Shown here: one piece after another, positions 1,909 to 41,012 of the stretch
Layout: every line of letters begins with the position of its first letter
Position numbering within the stretch: the first letter of the stretch is position 1
NCBI GenBank assembly: GCA_900469345.1
Contig: UBWZ01000014.1
Span: 124,001-188,000, forward strand
From: Hyphomicrobiales bacterium
Lineage (GTDB): Bacteria > Pseudomonadota > Alphaproteobacteria > Rhizobiales > Rhizobiaceae
Reading direction: 5' to 3'
DNA length: 64,000 nt
Notes under the pieces: generated by a model
Told to the model about the DNA's origin: nothing
The model's input: the letters and a program-made list of their open reading frames with translations, nothing else
Databases searched by the model: none
Made by a program: the position numbers and the translations under genes

Positions 1909-2736
1909 CTAGCCGTCTGTGGAGACGGTAAGAGCTTTCCACGATGTGAGTTCCTTCTGCAACCGCTCGATCCGCGCCGTCACGTGGCTGAGGGCATCGC
2001 TCCCAAGGAGAAGTTGCGGCGGGGGATTGTCCGATTCAATGAGTGTAAGCACAGCGGCGGCCAGTTTTTTGGGATCACCAAGTTGCTTGCCGCTTACGGC
2101 CTGACGCGCCTCGCGGATCGGATCGAACAGGCTGTCGTAATCTGCAATCGACCTGTCTGTGCGGACCATGGAACGCCCGGCCCAGTCTGTCCGGAACGAG
2201 CCAGGGCAAAGCGTTGTCACGTGAACTCCAAACGGCGCCATTTCCGAGCGCATGACCTCGGAAATGCCCTGAAACGCGAACTTGCTGCCGCAGTAATATG
2301 CGATGCCGGGCATGGTGATCATACCGCCCATCGACGTGACGTTCACGATAAAACCACGGCGGCGCTCACGGAACCTCGGAAGAAATGCCTTGGCCACAGC
2401 CACGGCGCCGAACACGTTCACGTCAAACTGACGTCGCATCTCTTCAAGTGGCGATTCCTCGAGCACGCCCTCGTGACCGTATCCGGCATTGTTGATCAGC
2501 ACGTCGACTGGCCCGTGTTCGTCCTCCGCTTGCTGGACGACGTCAGGGATGCGGTCGAAATCGGTGACGTCGCAAAGGACCGGGCGCAGTTCCGGGAGGC
2601 TCTTTGCCAGCGTTTCGCGCGAGGCTTCGGAGCGGACGGTCCCGATGACGGTGTGACCGGCTTCGATTGCGGCAGTGGCGATCGCCAAACCGAAGCCCGA
2701 ATTCGCCCCTGTTATGAAAAACGTTTTGCTCGACAT
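1909..2736 (-). CDS. SDR-family NAD(P)-dependent oxidoreductase
   Basis: 275 aa classical short-chain dehydrogenase. The Rossmann motif TGANSGFG is near residue 9, NNAGYG near 88, the catalytic Ser in VNVTSMGG and the catalytic pair in YYCGSK near 155-159. The long C-terminal region (after about 190) resembles the retinol-dehydrogenase-like/YdfG-like SDRs acting on aldehydes or ketones. An AAGGAG ribosome site precedes the ATG. It is divergent from the AraC gene at 2828, an arrangement common for AraC-controlled oxidoreductases such as yqhC-yqhD. The substrate is unknown. Confidence 0.88.
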   Translation of the reverse strand: MSSKTFFITGANSGFGLAIATAAIEAGHTVIGTVRSEASRETLAKSLPELRPVLCDVTDFDRIPDVVQQAEDEHGPVDVLINNAGYGHEGVLEESPLEEMRRQFDVNVFGAVAVAKAFLPRFRERRRGFIVNVTSMGGMITMPGIAYYCGSKFAFQGISEVMRSEMAPFGVHVTTLCPGSFRTDWAGRSMVRTDRSIADYDSLFDPIREARQAVSGKQLGDPKKLAAAVLTLIESDNPPPQLLLGSDALSHVTARIERLQKELTSWKALTVSTDG

Positions 2737-2827
2737 TTCTAAAACTCCTTGATTAACCGTGGATGACAGATAATCTCAACGCCACCTGAACTCGATTGCG
2801 GATCCTCTAATTGTTTTGCCTAATCCT

Positions 2828-3739
2828 ATGATTTCTGAAAATCAGTCCGTCGCCCATGACCGGCTCGTCGCCGTGGCCGGGCAACTGGCTCCTCGCCTCG
2901 GCTACAATCAGACTGCGATCAGTTGTGTCCGTATCCTTCGCACCGAGGCGGTGCTCGATGACGTCCCGGTTCTCTATAAGCCCGGGGCGGTCTTCGTATT
3001 ACAGGGAAGCAAATACGGAATCCTCGAAGGCGACGTCTACCTTTATGACGAGGATCATTATCTCGCTGTCTCGGTACCGGTTCCATTCCGAATGACTTCA
3101 AAGGCAAGTCCACAGCGGCCATTGCTTGCCGTCTATCTGGAGTTCGATATGCAGATGGCGACGGAGATCGCTCTGCAGGTGGAAGAACTCGCAGGTCCCG
3201 CAGACGCCAAACCGAGAGGGCTGCTCTCGAGCAGAATGGACAGCGATATCGAAGACGTCCTGCTTCGCTTACTGACGGCGCTCGGCAACCCGGTCGATGT
3301 CGCCGTGCTCGGGAGCTCTATTCTGCGTGAACTGCATTACCGCGTGATGGTTGGCTCGCAAGGTAGCGCGGTTATCGCGGCCCTTCAGCGAAAAGGGACG
3401 TCCGGAAAACTGCTTCAGAGCGTGGCATGGCTGCGGGAGAACTACAGCAGTGAAATCGCCGTCGCGGATCTTGCGAGAGACTTGGGTATGAGCGTTCCTT
3501 CCTATCACGTCCATTTCAAGAACCTGACCGGCTCAAGTCCGATGCAATATGTGAAGGCGATGCGGCTCCATGAAGCGAGACTGATGATCGCCCGCCAGAC
3601 TGCAACAATTGCGGAGGTGGCGGCGTCAGTGGGCTATGTCAGCCCGGCGCAATTCAGCCGCGACTTCAGACGGCATTTCGGGCGTACCGCATCGGAAGAA
3701 GCGAAGTGGGTCCGGCATCACCTGGGCGAACAGGTTTGA
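2828..3739 (+). CDS. AraC-family regulator with N-terminal cupin (YqhC-like)
   Basis: About 303 aa. The N-terminal AraC_N/cupin part (residues 25-170) contains VPVLYKPGAVFVLQGSK and YLAVSVPVPF, diagnostic of the AraC_N group that includes aldehyde-responsive YqhC. The C-terminal double helix-turn-helix is at about 205-300 (VADLARDLGMSVPSYHVHFK and IAEVAASVGYVSPAQFSRDFRRHFG). An upstream in-frame TTG at 2816 is possible; no strong ribosome site is visible for either. Being divergent from the SDR at 1909-2736, it is the likely activator of that gene (inference). Confidence 0.88.
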   Translation: MISENQSVAHDRLVAVAGQLAPRLGYNQTAISCVRILRTEAVLDDVPVLYKPGAVFVLQGSKYGILEGDVYLYDEDHYLAVSVPVPFRMTSKASPQRPLLAVYLEFDMQMATEIALQVEELAGPADAKPRGLLSSRMDSDIEDVLLRLLTALGNPVDVAVLGSSILRELHYRVMVGSQGSAVIAALQRKGTSGKLLQSVAWLRENYSSEIAVADLARDLGMSVPSYHVHFKNLTGSSPMQYVKAMRLHEARLMIARQTATIAEVAASVGYVSPAQFSRDFRRHFGRTASEEAKWVRHHLGEQV

Positions 3740-35011: not shown

Positions 35012-35109
35012 CGTCAGAGGGCCTCCAGCGGAGTGGGTCGAATACTACGCAACTTGGGAAGGATACGGGGTTGCGCGGCCGAGCCTTGACCCGGCCGCAA
35101 GCCATTGGA

Positions 35110-35784
35110 TCAGTCGAGGCCGAGGCGCTTGCGAAGCGTCGCATTCTCTTCGCGCAGCTTTTCCGCCAGAAGCTTGCGAAGCCGCTGGTTTTCCTGCTCG
35201 AGCTGGAGAAGATCTTCTATCTCGTCAAGCGGAGTAACGGCATCAGGAGCCGTGTCCACTGATGCTGAGCTTGGCTGTGCCGGCGCGGATCCCTTTGCGC
35301 GTCCAGGACCGCGAGCGGCCCTACCCTGAGCGGCGGCTTTCGGCCTACCGCGTTTGGCGGCCGGCTTAGTGGAACTGGATACAGCCGCCTCGTCGCCTGA
35401 TGTGTCCGCTGACGCCTTCCTGCGCCCCCCGCGCCGCTTCTTTGGTTCTTCTGTTTCAGTCGGCAAGGCGTCTGCCGTCTGTGTATCAAGATCGGGTTCG
35501 TTGCTGTTCTCGTCGGCCATAGGTCCCTCCTGTGCCACAGATGCTGTTGTTATCTCGCCTAAGACCGATGTCAATGAAGCTGCAGAAAGCTCGCCCGCTG
35601 GCAGCGCATGATCTGGATCTGCAGGTGTTGCTGTCTCTTGATCGTTGAACGGAAGCGTTTCATCTTCGACCTGGCGTGTCACTGACTTCAGGTCGAGATT
35701 GCCCCATATGGAGTTCGCAGGAGAAGCGACCTTGCGGCGAGGGTTTTTGTATTCAACTGCGAAATGAGCTGTTGGCTTCTTCAA
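35110..35784 (-). CDS. syrB: SyrB-like transcriptional regulator
   Basis: 224 aa. From residue 90 it resembles Sinorhizobium SyrB, which represses syrM: an acidic MADEN start, a Lys/Arg-rich stretch (EPKKRRGGRRKAS and AAKRGRPKAAAQGRAARG with an AT-hook-like GRP), and the hallmark C-terminal coiled coil PLDEIEDLLQLEQENQRLRKLLAEKLREENATLRKRLGLD. The N-terminal 88 residues are extra compared with SyrB. The start shown is TTG at 35784; the internal ATG at the SyrB-like start is an alternative. It is likely a DNA-binding repressor with unknown targets here. Confidence 0.75.
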   Translation of the reverse strand: MKKPTAHFAVEYKNPRRKVASPANSIWGNLDLKSVTRQVEDETLPFNDQETATPADPDHALPAGELSAASLTSVLGEITTASVAQEGPMADENSNEPDLDTQTADALPTETEEPKKRRGGRRKASADTSGDEAAVSSSTKPAAKRGRPKAAAQGRAARGPGRAKGSAPAQPSSASVDTAPDAVTPLDEIEDLLQLEQENQRLRKLLAEKLREENATLRKRLGLD

Positions 35785-36306
35785 TGGTTGTGACCTTCAC
35801 AAGCAGTGGAATTGACATGATCGCCAGGCAGGTCGCCCGCGCTGACCCGGCCGCGTCGCTTTTTTCCAAGGGACATAGACGTCGTACGACCAGGAACGCA
35901 AGACTTACATCGTCCAGTCTAGCATCACGTCGCTACGACCGTCTTCACGGGTTGATGCTTGCCGGGAGCTTAGGTCTCTGCATGTTGGTACGCCAGATCT
36001 TGCGCCAGCGCTACTGCCCTGCTCCATTGGTCCATGCACTCGACACCAGAGCGAGCGGGATCAAGACCAAGGTGCGAACGGTCGACGGCGCTCGCGAGCC
36101 ACAGCGAAGTCCAAACCACATGCCGCAGTGCCGATCCCTAATACTATAGATCGCCGCGTGTTGGTCTTTGCATCTGCAAAGCGCAAAACTTCTCTTCGTT
36201 CTCTCACAGCCACAGGCACAGGTGGTATTTCGCTGGCCGTGGAAGCCGATCAGTGTCGCTTTTACCGAACCGGCTGCCGACATCTCGAAAGCTGTCCCGA
36301 CAGCAG
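35785..36306 (+). other. Intergenic region upstream of syrB-like gene
   Basis: About 520 bases. Overlapping frames on both strands (for example 36011-36283 minus, Cys-rich) have no family features or good ribosome sites. It presumably contains the syrB-like promoter on the minus strand. Confidence 0.4.
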
Positions 36307-36480
36307 CACAAAAGCAAAAAGCCTGCCGCGGGAGGAGGTGCGGCAGGCTTTCTAAAGGTTCCGTACAGCGGCTGGGAGGAGGAGCGCCGCAGTCCGGACA
36401 GACGCCCCTTGGGAGGAGACGGCGTCAGAGTTCGAAGCTTTGCGGGAGGAGGTGCATTGCTTCGACAACCGAAACATACC
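36307..36480 (-). ncRNA. Cuckoo-type sRNA with four CCUCCUCCC-loop hairpins
   Basis: On the minus strand four hairpins follow one another, each presenting CCUCCUCCC or UCUCCUCCC in its loop. H1 is 36465-36432 (stem TCGAAGC..GCTTCGA plus inner TGC/GCA). H2 is 36426-36401 (GACGCC/GGCGTC). H3 is 36398-36360 (TCCG and GCGGC with complements). H4 is 36351-36318 (12-bp stem) and is followed by TTTTTGCTTTTG, a terminator. This matches the alphaproteobacterial cuckoo RNA family (CcsR1-4 in Rhodobacter sphaeroides), whose anti-Shine-Dalgarno loops regulate mRNAs under stress. The 5' end is not defined by the sequence. A possible DUF1127-like ORF lies upstream, as is usual for the family. Confidence 0.85.
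36318..36351 (-). terminator. Rho-independent terminator of the cuckoo-type sRNA
   Basis: Minus-strand stem AAAGCCTGCCGC/GCGGCAGGCTTT (12 bp), loop ACCTCCTCCC, then TTTTTGCTTTT. The terminator hairpin itself carries the fourth anti-Shine-Dalgarno motif in its loop. Confidence 0.85.
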
Positions 36481-36703
36481 AGCTGTCGCCGCTCATGGAA
36501 TGGGAATTGTTGCAGCGCAGTCGTGCGTTAGACGCATGTCTATCCCACCGAATCGCTGAGTAGCCAAGGTTGGGAAGTGATCGGCTCCCTGAGCTCAAGA
36601 CAGCCAATACTTCGTAATCGCCGCTGCCACCGAGCGACAGCTTAAGCCACCTGCGGCGTGACGCAGGTGCTCGGCAAACGTAAGCTAGTCGAGCGGCACA
36701 CAT
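36425..36703 (-). CDS. Possible DUF1127-like small ORF upstream of sRNA
   Basis: 92 aa open frame from an ATG at 36703 with GGAG six bases upstream. Residues 16-52 (RRRWLKLSLGGSGDYEVLAVLSSGSRSLPNLGYSAIRWDRH) loosely follow the DUF1127 pattern of a basic W-containing helix and an LS-L-D-IG-SR-I helix, with a two-residue insertion and a missing Asp. The 3' end runs into hairpin H1. In Rhodobacter the DUF1127 protein CcaF1 is encoded directly before the CCUCCUCCC RNAs, and this position is what makes the ORF worth listing. It may be degenerate, so the assignment is tentative. Confidence 0.35.
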   Translation of the reverse strand: MCAARLAYVCRAPASRRRWLKLSLGGSGDYEVLAVLSSGSRSLPNLGYSAIRWDRHASNARLRCNNSHSMSGDSWYVSVVEAMHLLPQSFEL

Positions 36704-36827: not shown

Positions 36828-37618
36828 TTGCAGATCGATCTCAGGAAAAAAACAGCCCTCGTTACTGGATCCACCGAGGGCATCGGCTATGCGATCGCCC
36901 GACAACTCGTGAGAGCCGGCGCTGACGTCGTCGTCAACGGCAGGTCCGAGGAAAAGACCGCCAAGGCCGCCGAGCGGCTCGGGGTGAAGGGGCAGTGGCA
37001 GGAGTATCAGCGATTCCCGCCGATCTCGCGAGCGCCGAAGGATGCAGAGCGCTCGTCGAGAAGCTGCCCCATGTTGACATCCTCATCAATAACGCCGGTA
37101 TCTTTCAGCCGAGCGACTTCTTCGAGACCCCTGACGACGTGTGGGACCGGCACTGGCAGGTGAACGTCATGTCAGCGGTACGACTCTCTCGGGCCTACCT
37201 GCCAGGCATGGAGAAGGCCAACTGGGGCCGGGTCATCTTCATTGCATCGGAATCGGGTTTCAACATCCCGGTCGAGATGATCCACTACGGCGTCAGCAAG
37301 ACGGCAGACATCGCAGTTGCAAGGGGCCTTGCCAAGCGCATGTCTGGCACCGGGGTTACGGTGAACTCCGTTCTTCCTGGTCCCACGCTCTCGGAAGGCG
37401 TCCAATCGATGCTCGTCGACGAGCAGCAAAAGAGCGGAAAATCGATTGAAGAGGTAGCTGCCGATTTCGTGAAGAAGCACCGTAGCAGCTCCATCATCCA
37501 GCGTGCTGCCAGTGTCGATGAGATCGCAAACATCGTGACATACCTCGCCTCGCCGCTGGCATCCGCTACGACAGGTGCCTCCGTGCGCGTTGACGGCGGC
37601 TTGATCGACACTTTGTGA
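36828..37618 (+). pseudogene. SDR-family oxidoreductase, frameshifted
   Basis: Two overlapping frames together make one SDR. Frame 1 from TTG 36828 (AGGAG upstream) carries TGSTEGIGYAIA and VVVNGRSEEK up to about 36990. The next frame from about 36995 carries VSAIPADLASAEG, DILINNAGIF, SESGFNIPVEMIHYGVSK and SVRVDGGLIDTL. Joining them needs a one-base gain near the G-rich stretch 36980-37000, so one base was lost there or misread. The protein would be about 263 aa and is a paralogue of the 14105-14899 SDR. It is either a recent pseudogene or a sequencing indel. Confidence 0.75.
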
Positions 37619-38031: not shown

Positions 38032-38937
38032 ATGGCAGGGCATCGGGCACAGTGGAAAGGCTTCCTCAAGTTCGGCGAGGTGACCTGCGGCGTCGGCCTC
38101 TATACGGCCGCCAGCACGTCCGAGCGGCTAACCTTCAACACCATCAACACGGCGACAGGCAACCGGGTGAACAGGGTGTTCGTTGATAGCGAGACGGAGG
38201 AACTGGTCCCGAAGGAGCAGCAGACGAAGGGCTTCGAGATCGACAAGGACCGCTACATCATCATCAATCCGGAAGAGATCGCCGCCGCTGTTCCGGAAAG
38301 CAACAAGACCCTGGAGATCGAAGCCTTCATTCCCTGCCGTGAGGTGGACGACGTTTACTTCGACAAGCCCTACTACCTGACGCCCGACAAGATGGGCGGC
38401 GACGCCTTCGTGGCGTTGCGGGATGCGATGCGCAAGTCCAAGGTTGCCGCTATCGCCCGCACTGTCCTGTTCCGCCGGATGCGGACTGTACTGATCCGGC
38501 CGCACGGCAAGGGCCTGATCGCGACCACGCTGAACTTTGACTACGAAGTCCGCTCAAGTGCCAAGGCCTTCGAGGACATGCCGAAGCTGAAGATCGAAGG
38601 CGAAATGCTCGATCTTGCCAAGCACATCATCGGCACCAAGAAGGGCGAGTTCGACCCGGCTGGCTTCGATGACCGCTACGAGACGGCGCTGGCGGAGCTT
38701 GTGAAGGCGAAGATCGAGGGCAAGGCGCTGCCGAAGCGGAAAAAGGTCGAGGTGTCGAAGCCGAACGATCTGCTGGCGGCTCTTCGCGAGAGTGCCGGCT
38801 CGATGAAGGAGGCAGAAGTTAAACCGACACGCACCGCCGCCAATGCAAATGCTGGCCTTGGCAGGCAGCGTGCCGCGCGCGGGGCGGCTGGGAAGGCCGC
38901 CTCTTCGAAGGCAACCCCGCAGCGCAAGGCAGGGTGA
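38032..38937 (+). CDS. ku: Ku-family DNA end-binding protein (first of tandem pair)
   Basis: 301 aa bacterial Ku. It has the core beta-barrel (WKGFLKFGEVTCGVGLYTAASTSERLTFNTINTATGNRV), the YYLTPDKMGGDAFVALRDAM helix region and a basic, Ala/Lys-rich C-terminal tail after about residue 255, typical of DNA-binding or LigD-recruiting tails. Ku rings load on double-strand ends for non-homologous end joining. No ligD lies in the window. It is followed 11 bases later by a second Ku gene, suggesting a heterodimer, as proposed for the paired Ku genes of Sinorhizobium meliloti. Confidence 0.92.
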   Translation: MAGHRAQWKGFLKFGEVTCGVGLYTAASTSERLTFNTINTATGNRVNRVFVDSETEELVPKEQQTKGFEIDKDRYIIINPEEIAAAVPESNKTLEIEAFIPCREVDDVYFDKPYYLTPDKMGGDAFVALRDAMRKSKVAAIARTVLFRRMRTVLIRPHGKGLIATTLNFDYEVRSSAKAFEDMPKLKIEGEMLDLAKHIIGTKKGEFDPAGFDDRYETALAELVKAKIEGKALPKRKKVEVSKPNDLLAALRESAGSMKEAEVKPTRTAANANAGLGRQRAARGAAGKAASSKATPQRKAG

Positions 38938-38948
38938 GGAGGTAGATC

Positions 38949-39761
38949 ATGGCCATCCGACCCTACTGGCGCGGCTATCTCAAGCTGTCTCTCGTGACAT
39001 GCCCTGTCGCGATGACGCCTGCCACCAGCGAGAGCGAAAAGGTACGCTTCCACACGCTCAATAAGGATACCGGCAACCGTGTCGTCTCGCAGTACGTCGA
39101 CTCGGTCACTGGCAAGCCCGTGAAGGACGAGAACGAGGCGAAGGGCTATGCCCGCGGCGAGAACGACTACGTCGTACTGAACGAGGACGATCTTGACGCC
39201 GTGCAGCTCGACACAGTGAAGACGATCGACATTGAGAAGTTCGTGGCGGCGGACAGTATCGAGTGGGTCTACCTCGAGAAGCCGCACTATCTCGCACCGG
39301 ACGACCCGGTTGGTCAGGAAGCCTTTGCGGTCATACGTGACGCAATGGCGGCCGACAACGTGGTCGGTATCTCAAAGCTGGTGATCGGACGGCGGGAGCG
39401 TGCGGTGGTTCTGGAGCCCCGTGGCGACGGCATCGTGCTCTGGACGCTTCGCTTCGGCGACGAGGTTCGCCGCGAGGATGGCTATTTCGGTGAAATCGAG
39501 GACGAGGCCGATCCCGATCTGATCCCACTGGTGCAGTCGCTGATCAAGCAGAAGACGCAGCACTGGTCGCCGAAGATGGTCAGCGATCCCATCCAGGAGA
39601 CGCTGCTCAGAATAATCGACGAGAAAAAGAAGGCGATGAAGCCGTCGAAGAGGAGCACGCCTAAGGAAGCCGACACCGCTGCACGGAGCAACGTCGTCGA
39701 CATCATGAGCGCTCTGAAGGCTAGCTTGGCGACTGAAGCGAAGAGGCAGAAGGCGGTTTGA
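38949..39761 (+). CDS. ku: Ku-family DNA end-binding protein (second of tandem pair)
   Basis: 270 aa Ku homologue. It begins MAIRPYWRGYLKLSLVTCPVAMTPATSESEKVRFHTLNKDTGNRV and contains WVYLEKPHYLAPDDPVGQEAFAVIRDAM and VLEPRGDGIVLWTLRFGDEV. A GAGGAGG ribosome site precedes the ATG. It is clearly diverged from the first Ku, so the pair is not a recent duplication and probably assembles as a heterodimer. The C-terminal tail is shorter and less basic than in the first Ku. Its stop overlaps the start of a frameshifted Cys-rich ORF. Confidence 0.92.
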   Translation: MAIRPYWRGYLKLSLVTCPVAMTPATSESEKVRFHTLNKDTGNRVVSQYVDSVTGKPVKDENEAKGYARGENDYVVLNEDDLDAVQLDTVKTIDIEKFVAADSIEWVYLEKPHYLAPDDPVGQEAFAVIRDAMAADNVVGISKLVIGRRERAVVLEPRGDGIVLWTLRFGDEVRREDGYFGEIEDEADPDLIPLVQSLIKQKTQHWSPKMVSDPIQETLLRIIDEKKKAMKPSKRSTPKEADTAARSNVVDIMSALKASLATEAKRQKAV

Positions 39762-39900: not shown

Positions 39901-39954
39901 GCAAGCATCCTAGATGGCCGCAGCGACTGACTGAACACGGGGAGGAGAATACAT

Positions 39955-40269
39955 ATGCAGCAGACAGTCAAACTCGTTCTGTGCGAGCCCTCCCCGTTTA
40001 TCTACGGGGCGAACGGCCATATTGGCGTGACCGACGGTTCCTCCTTCTGGATCGTAGTCGTGACTTGTGAAGCGATGCGCGAAACGGCATCGCCTCGAGA
40101 AGCGTCGCTGAAACGGCTGCTGCGTTTTGCAGATCTGTACTTGGCGATGGCCGAGGCCGCGCTATCGCGTGGCGAAGACGAGGACGGGAAGATCTGGATC
40201 TTCGAGAGCGACATCCTAGCCCGCGGCAACGTGGCGGCGCCTCGAACGCAAGTATCGCTGGAACTGTGA
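39955..40269 (+). CDS. Hypothetical protein, 104 aa
   Basis: 104 aa with a strong GGGGAGGAG ribosome site 8 bases before the ATG. The N-terminal half is beta-like (VKLVLCEPSPFIYGANGHIGVTDGSSFWIVVVTCEAM); the second half is a helix (ASLKRLLRFADLYLAMAEAALSRG) followed by KIWIFESDIL. No family was recognised with confidence. It follows the Ku pair and may belong to the same transcript. Confidence 0.65.
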   Translation: MQQTVKLVLCEPSPFIYGANGHIGVTDGSSFWIVVVTCEAMRETASPREASLKRLLRFADLYLAMAEAALSRGEDEDGKIWIFESDILARGNVAAPRTQVSLEL

Positions 40270-40535: not shown

Positions 40536-41012
40536 CTAAGGAGCAAGCTCCGGATGCTGGTAGCGTACCGCCGGCCGGTCCAGCGACAGATGGGGCCATA
40601 GCTCCCGGCGTGAGGCCTCGAAATTGACCCACAGATCATGGTGCTCGAGCGACGGTATTGTCACCACCTCCCCTAGATCGTGGCCCGCAAGAGCCGCTTC
40701 CACCATTTTTCCGGCATCCATCATCATGCTTGGGGGAATGGACGAGCTATCCACACCGGCGCGATTGAAGATTTCCGTCCTAGTGAACCCAGGCAGCACC
40801 GCCTGGATGCGCACTCCCTTCGGCTTCAGCTCGACGTACATGGCCTGCGTCAGAGCCAGTACGAATGCCCTTCCCGCCGCGTAGGAGCCACTGAACCTTT
40901 CCGGCATCGTCGCGACGACGGAGGCGATGTTGATGATGCCGCCGCTACCGCGTCCGACGAACGCCTTTGCTGCCGCGACGGTCAGCGCATGTAGTACCCG
41001 TACGTTCACCAT
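40536..41012 (-). pseudogene. SDR-family oxidoreductase, N-terminally truncated
   Basis: 158 aa that begin in the middle of an SDR (NVRVLHALTVAAAKAF). They contain the catalytic Ser region IINIASVVATMPERFSGSYAAGRAF, with Tyr but Gly-Arg where YxxxK is expected, and the C-terminal VLPGFTRTEIF. The Rossmann half with TGxxxGxG is absent; upstream sequence is unrelated. It is a 5'-deleted gene, and the altered Lys (Arg) in the active-site YxxxK supports loss of function. Confidence 0.65.

Follow-up and report, generated by a model that had tools for sequence, protein, structure and literature searches.

A probable four-hairpin small RNA gene of the αr14/cuckoo family on a plasmid-type contig

The founder of the αr14 family of small RNAs, NfeR1 (SmelC397, Smr14C2), is described as a chromosomally encoded RNA of 123 nt with three hairpins (PMC10746234, PMC7143759). 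In S. meliloti it pairs with ntrB through three redundant anti-Shine-Dalgarno (anti-SD) motifs, and lowers translation of ntrB and of two ABC-transporter mRNAs; LsrB activates it and NtrC represses it (PMC10746234). Only one of the six NfeR1-type copies of S. meliloti was reported as reliably seen on Northern blots under the conditions tested (PMC7143759). Hairpins carrying CCUCCUCCC number three in RFMSmelA075 and four in RFMSmelA099, both described by Reinkensmeier et al. (2011), who suggested that the two form a single family whose members differ in module number (PMC3927594). A different arrangement is reported for the CIN1-type locus of Rhodobacter sphaeroides, where CcsR1-4 are cut from a transcript shared with the DUF1127 gene ccaF1 (PMC10253847).

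SmelA099 (smrA6, SMa6570) is listed as a 160-nt RNA from the minus strand of S. meliloti pSymA (1328175-1328334). Inside these published coordinates the plasmid carries four motifs on the SmelA099 strand, spaced by 37/36/46 nt, of which the first starts 16 nt past the reported 5' end as reckoned from the coordinates; the Rfam ar14 model, RF02344, also matches this region. The locus considered here lies in a 64-kb window (the whole stretch of DNA analysed, 64,000 nt), where GGGAGGAG starts on the plus strand at exactly 36330, 36374, 36411 and 36444, as an earlier note on this DNA had stated; read on the minus strand, these are four CTCCTCCC anti-SD motifs at 36.3-36.45 kb. By homology to the ends of SmelA099 the RNA would run from about 36467 to 36313, and not out to 36703, the limit first given to the feature. 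Folding of this predicted 155-nt minus-strand RNA yields four hairpins, each with one motif in its loop and with a T-rich run 3' of the last stem, the same structure that the earlier note had drawn; the fold is at -66.1 kcal/mol (z = -5.5), and none of 200 shuffles was equally stable. Hairpin 2 of the window copy reads UCUCCUCCC, the αr14 loop type being CCUCCUCCC. None of the four loops or stems is disrupted in this fold, and the terminator is intact as well.

Table 1. Features at and around the RNA locus, in window positions.
Feature	Position	Strand	Basis or score
Four-hairpin αr14/cuckoo sRNA, predicted transcript of ~155 nt	36313..36467	-	ends inferred by SmelA099 homology
Hairpin 1 (5'-most), anti-SD loop, beyond the Rfam model	36432..36465	-	fold and covariation
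Hairpin 2, loop with CTCCTCCC at 36411-36418	36401..36426	-	fold and covariation
Hairpin 3, loop with CTCCTCCTCCC	36360..36398	-	fold and covariation
Hairpin 4, an intrinsic terminator with an anti-SD loop and a T-rich 3' side	36315..36354	-	fold and covariation
Match to Rfam RF02344 (ar14) over the three 3' hairpins	36314..36433	-	80.6 bits (gathering threshold 58.8 bits), E 6.1e-13
Promoter-like block made up of an upstream box conserved in relatives (5' end 36526) and a -10-like GGTATG (36475-36480)	36475..36526	-	
92-aa frame once proposed as DUF1127, rejected	36428..36703, stop 36425-36427	-	profile searches, conservation
Putative regulator downstream of the sRNA	35110..35784	-	no Pfam match
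Ku gene 1, divergent neighbour	38032..38937	+	TIGR02772 Ku_bact, 268 bits
Ku gene 2, neighbour	38949..39761	+	PF02735, 8.3e-42

The earlier note had called for a covariance-model search and for a check on compensatory base changes among relatives, and both were carried out. In the whole 64 kb, RF02344 is the one Rfam match over its own family cut-off (Table 1), and it covers three of the four hairpins, hairpin 1 lying outside the model. Matches to ar7, ctRNA_p42d and rnk_pseudo all fell far under their cut-offs, and identity with CcsR1 (RF02791) was rejected at 18.8 bits against a cut-off of 65.3. Covariation was assessed in an alignment of 39 of the 47 four-motif loci, eight having been dropped as similar to others; the sources were relatives in the genus of the source genome, named genomes and plasmids, and L006, L076, L085, L053 and L054 had been skipped in collecting loci as duplicates or mixed arrays. 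On the RNAalifold structure 97.5% of cells are paired and compensatory changes are indeed present, 20 of the 38 pairs showing double changes; none of 500 shuffles equalled the real alignment on even one of five measures, and sliding the 3' partners in the alignment made pairing fall to 36-54%. Since all eight pairs of hairpin 1 show compensatory changes across the 39 relatives, and since SmelA099 has the four-hairpin form, this 5' hairpin belongs to the same RNA as the three hairpins that Rfam covers. Hairpin 4 is near-invariant across the 39, an invariance that is partly selection, because 12 of these loci had been chosen by their exact terminator in the collection scan. A covariance model built for the four-hairpin form, R1, matches window 36301-36472 (G000:C30:160301-160472) at 159.8 bits, with the window copy among the sequences of the model.

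Hairpins with CCUCCUCCC unpaired in their loops, the αr14 trait, are present in the window RNA, as are four consecutive anti-SD hairpins in one unit, the SmelA099-type trait. The window RNA belongs to the four-hairpin (SmelA099-type) subclass of the αr14/cuckoo family and is apparently intact. It represents neither a new family nor a CcaF1-CcsR operon. The cuckoo-type anti-SD sRNA with its own terminator that the earlier note had foreseen is thus upheld by the Rfam score and by the covarying stems, while its suggestion of an undescribed family member is good for this copy only, the four-hairpin form having been described in 2011 as RFMSmelA099. A possibly undescribed RNA is in this way placed in a family with a known mechanism, that of NfeR1. 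The αr14 family description also includes an Hfq-independent transcript that silences mRNAs in trans, properties which the window copy may share by analogy.

Upstream of the first motif, 110 nt can be aligned in 84 sequences (82 loci of the genus, SmelA099 and NFR03), and in this alignment a box near GCATAGCTGCACTGCA is conserved, as is a GTAT that resembles a -10 element. The box of the window copy agrees with the consensus at 15 of 19 positions and ranks first among minus-strand matches of the 64 kb, which is a description and no independent test, because the consensus was drawn by eye from the same family. The published αr14 consensus is a σ70 promoter, CTTAGAC-N17-CTATAT, with a conserved stretch upstream; in the window sequence the upstream box and the -10-like element were recognised, and no clear -35. 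By eye, the box resembles the LTTR-type site of the NfeR1 promoter; this resemblance suggests control by a LysR-type activator, as by LsrB for NfeR1.

The source genome carries five ar14 copies. Three of them have three motifs; the two with four are the window copy (contig C30) and L002 (contig C26). Both four-motif copies are on plasmid-type contigs, since C26 and C30, the 251-kb contig of the window, carry repC; this supports the accessory setting proposed in the earlier note. That four-hairpin copies are restricted to plasmids was considered and rejected, one being carried by a 4.65-Mb contig (G007:C1). Searching 57 genomes of the genus with R1 gave 84 places at or above 109 bits and then a gap to 102.8 bits. 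All four motifs are exact in 71 of these 84 loci (L002, L005, L007-L035 and L096-L148), three in 10 and two in 3. As a three-hairpin-class control we used 40 places in the same genus, those ranked first under the gap: exactly three motifs were seen in 38, which makes the gap a marker of hairpin number inside the genus, and no array was called in the other two (L172, L176). Outside the genus the gap is unclean, L057, a three-motif place, reaching 109.4 bits. As counted from the match listings, the four-hairpin form (at least 109 bits) is common in the genus, being present in 48 of 57 genomes, and occurs in 16 of 121 in a family-wide sample; ar14 in general is found in 146 of 151 genomes. In the closest relative among the fetched loci, that of Rhizobium sp. 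NFR03 (L077), the first anti-SD motif is degenerate.

The earlier note had also seen a DUF1127-like ORF upstream of the RNA and, with it, the layout of CcaF1-CcsR. The 92-aa frame concerned runs into hairpin 1. It has no Pfam match at E values up to 10 (HMMER filters on) and no NCBIfam match, and it went unreported, filters off, by an ad hoc DUF1127 HMM built from seven DUF1127 peptides, which reported 726 of 1000 of its shuffles. Applied to the 64-kb window, the same HMM gave a best frame at E 0.19 and none near the RNA; no DUF1127 is present in the 900 nt upstream of the window copy. Relatives match the frame only from residue 49 on, that is, in the promoter and hairpin DNA, and the DUF1127-like stretch lies outside this conserved part; the NFR03 locus, 93% identical over 35048-36536, has other DNA upstream of the promoter. 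A DUF1127 gene in this frame is rejected on these grounds: no profile match, a stretch that is unconserved, and its absence in NFR03.

The layout itself does exist among relatives. At 26 of the 84 four-hairpin loci of the genus a same-strand DUF1127 lies upstream, with 166-220 nt between the end of its domain match and the RNA model, and within 1 kb downstream or antisense these 84 loci have none (one of them, L117, has just 249 nt of upstream DNA). The 40 same-genus three-hairpin-class places have DUF1127 upstream in no case and downstream in five; at L172 there are two DUF1127 matches on the motif strand, downstream. What had been claimed of the CcaF1-CcsR layout is thus corrected for the window locus and holds for these relatives, where a real DUF1127 layout is found. 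A three-motif copy of the source genome (L004, G000:C22:125670-125790) has two same-strand DUF1127 genes 237 and 660 nt downstream; L065 and L066 are grouped with it.

How far can other explanations account for the locus? The motifs are short, and GGGAGGAG alone is mildly enriched, with 7 occurrences in the 64-kb window against 2.8 expected; the bare count is weak evidence, because 3 of 100 shuffles contain at least 7. A purine-rich repeat that arose by chance and has no RNA function would be compatible with these figures, but a motif triple at gaps of 24-40 nt occurs twice, both times within the array, and in none of 100 shuffles, and this array, the stem covariation and the Rfam match above cut-off together refute it, leaving a chance of practically nil. 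An operon of the CcaF1-CcsR type, in which the 92-aa frame would encode a co-transcribed DUF1127 RNA-binding protein that aids processing of the RNA, is very improbable: the loose LSSxSRxLxNLG pattern seen by eye in the frame and the upstream, same-strand DUF1127 of the 26 relatives are in its favour, but neither Pfam, NCBIfam nor the ad hoc HMM matches the frame, its DUF1127-like stretch is outside the conserved part, and the sRNA has its own promoter-like block.

The remaining alternative, that the locus is a silent or decaying paralogue, unexpressed and kept by plasmid hitch-hiking, we consider unlikely, though far from negligible. The presence of five family members in the source genome would fit with it, as would the S. 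meliloti Northern blots described above (PMC7143759), the splitting of the adjoining SDR gene over two frames and the want of the DUF1127 gene found at 26 of the 84 relatives, although the other 57 are also without it. Against this, loops, stems and terminator are all intact in the window copy, and its promoter-like block remains.

We hold it very probable that the locus is a plasmid-borne gene for a trans-acting sRNA of the αr14/cuckoo family, four-hairpin (SmelA099-type) subclass: family membership, four covarying hairpins, a terminator, a promoter-like block and a repC contig are all features of the window copy itself. Transcription would start near 36467 and stop near 36313; each CCUCCUCCC-type loop would pair with a purine-rich Shine-Dalgarno sequence, GGGAGGAGG, and block ribosome binding there; and with four redundant loops one RNA could repress many mRNAs at the level of translation, the effect reported for NfeR1, with its three loops, on the mRNAs named above. 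By analogy with NfeR1, the window RNA probably has an anti-SD function, silencing mRNAs by masking their ribosome sites. The pattern GGGAGGA-N5..11-ATG is found at 114 sites in the source genome against 6 for the reversed pattern, so suitable target sites exist, which says nothing on their use. In the window, a 104-aa frame (39955-40269) has GGGAGGAG 7 nt upstream of its ATG, making 39940-39970 a fully complementary candidate target.

The start of Ku gene 1 is about 1.6 kb from the 5' end of the RNA. On the downstream side, the product of the putative regulator gene is 89% identical over 224 aa in NFR03, where it is also beside the sRNA, and its homologues are annotated 'transcriptional regulator'. 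For one of the two neighbouring proteins that the earlier note described as SyrB-like regulators, the listed plasmid homologues carry only that annotation, which leaves the SyrB-like label putative. The SDR gene beside the sRNA (window 36828-37618) is split, with its N-terminus in 36828-37163 and the rest in 36995-37618, and is either a pseudogene or the product of a sequencing error; a second SDR fragment, at 40536-41012 on the minus strand, matches the family profile over its C-terminal half alone. Upstream of the sRNA of NFR03, positions 2700-3260 of that locus look, by eye, like the end of an insertion-sequence transposase.

Homologues of dinB, imuB, ligD, Ku or SRAP genes lie within about 1.5 kb of the RNA at 28 of the 84 four-hairpin loci, or at 34 if 3'-5' exonuclease is added. 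None accompanies 30 three-hairpin loci, mostly of other genera, nor any of the 40 same-genus three-hairpin-class places, which are the fairer control. Pfam searches of the nearest neighbours agree with this. Of 83 downstream frames, 71 entered the neighbour-protein alignments, and 13-14 of these have IMS domains; on the upstream side 68 of 83 entered, with exonuclease in 13 and LigD in 6 (the omitted frames being mostly short). Where a dinB match could be placed, the gene is convergent and ends at most 10 nt from the end of the RNA model in 15 of 16 loci. Several different arrangements of repair genes are seen at four-hairpin loci. The window copy is outside the 28 repair-linked loci; in a midpoint-rooted tree the loci labelled for repair fall in one part, and the window copy falls there too (the tree label 'ligDb' denotes what is actually an ABC-transporter ATPase, judging from three window matches and the Pfam ABC rows).

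The 84 loci are related by descent and not independent, and the repair-gene neighbourhood is a lead only; a limited literature search, which included part of PMC3927594, found no repair-gene link for these RNAs. We think it quite unlikely that the four-hairpin subclass, instead of being a random paralogue, resides in DNA-repair islands of plasmids (with translesion polymerase, SRAP and end joining by LigD/Ku), where a DUF1127 module at near-fixed distance would be optional, and that it helps to tie translation, including that of repair or mutagenesis genes, to stress. If this were true, the window copy, beside its two Ku genes, would be a DUF1127-free version of such an island. Within a single genus, four-hairpin loci differ from three-hairpin-class places in having DUF1127 upstream (26 of 84, compared with 0 of 40) and repair genes nearby (28 of 84, compared with 0 of 40), and this contrast offers a testable lead on why these replicons carry the RNA.

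Compared with the described systems, the window RNA is of the same broad type as CcsR1-4, all being anti-SD sRNAs, but differs in being one four-hairpin unit with its own promoter-like block and without DUF1127, and in its score with the CcsR1 model, far under the cut-off. The Agrobacterium plasmids CP146245 and pTiAg57 have sRNA regions 80-81% identical to that of the window over 93-94% of the query; there, an annotated 48-aa DUF1127 gene, absent in the window, ends about 155 nt before the match. With NfeR1 the window RNA has in common the CCUCCUCCC loops, the terminator hairpin and the match to RF02344, whereas NfeR1 is chromosomal with three hairpins and the window RNA has four, on a plasmid-type contig. 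SmelA099, encoded on a symbiotic plasmid, was sequenced as an RNA, whereas the window copy is known from DNA alone; the two are alike in their four hairpins with CCUCCUCCC loops, spaced by 37/36/46 nt in SmelA099 and by 33/37/44 in the window, and they have the same terminator core.
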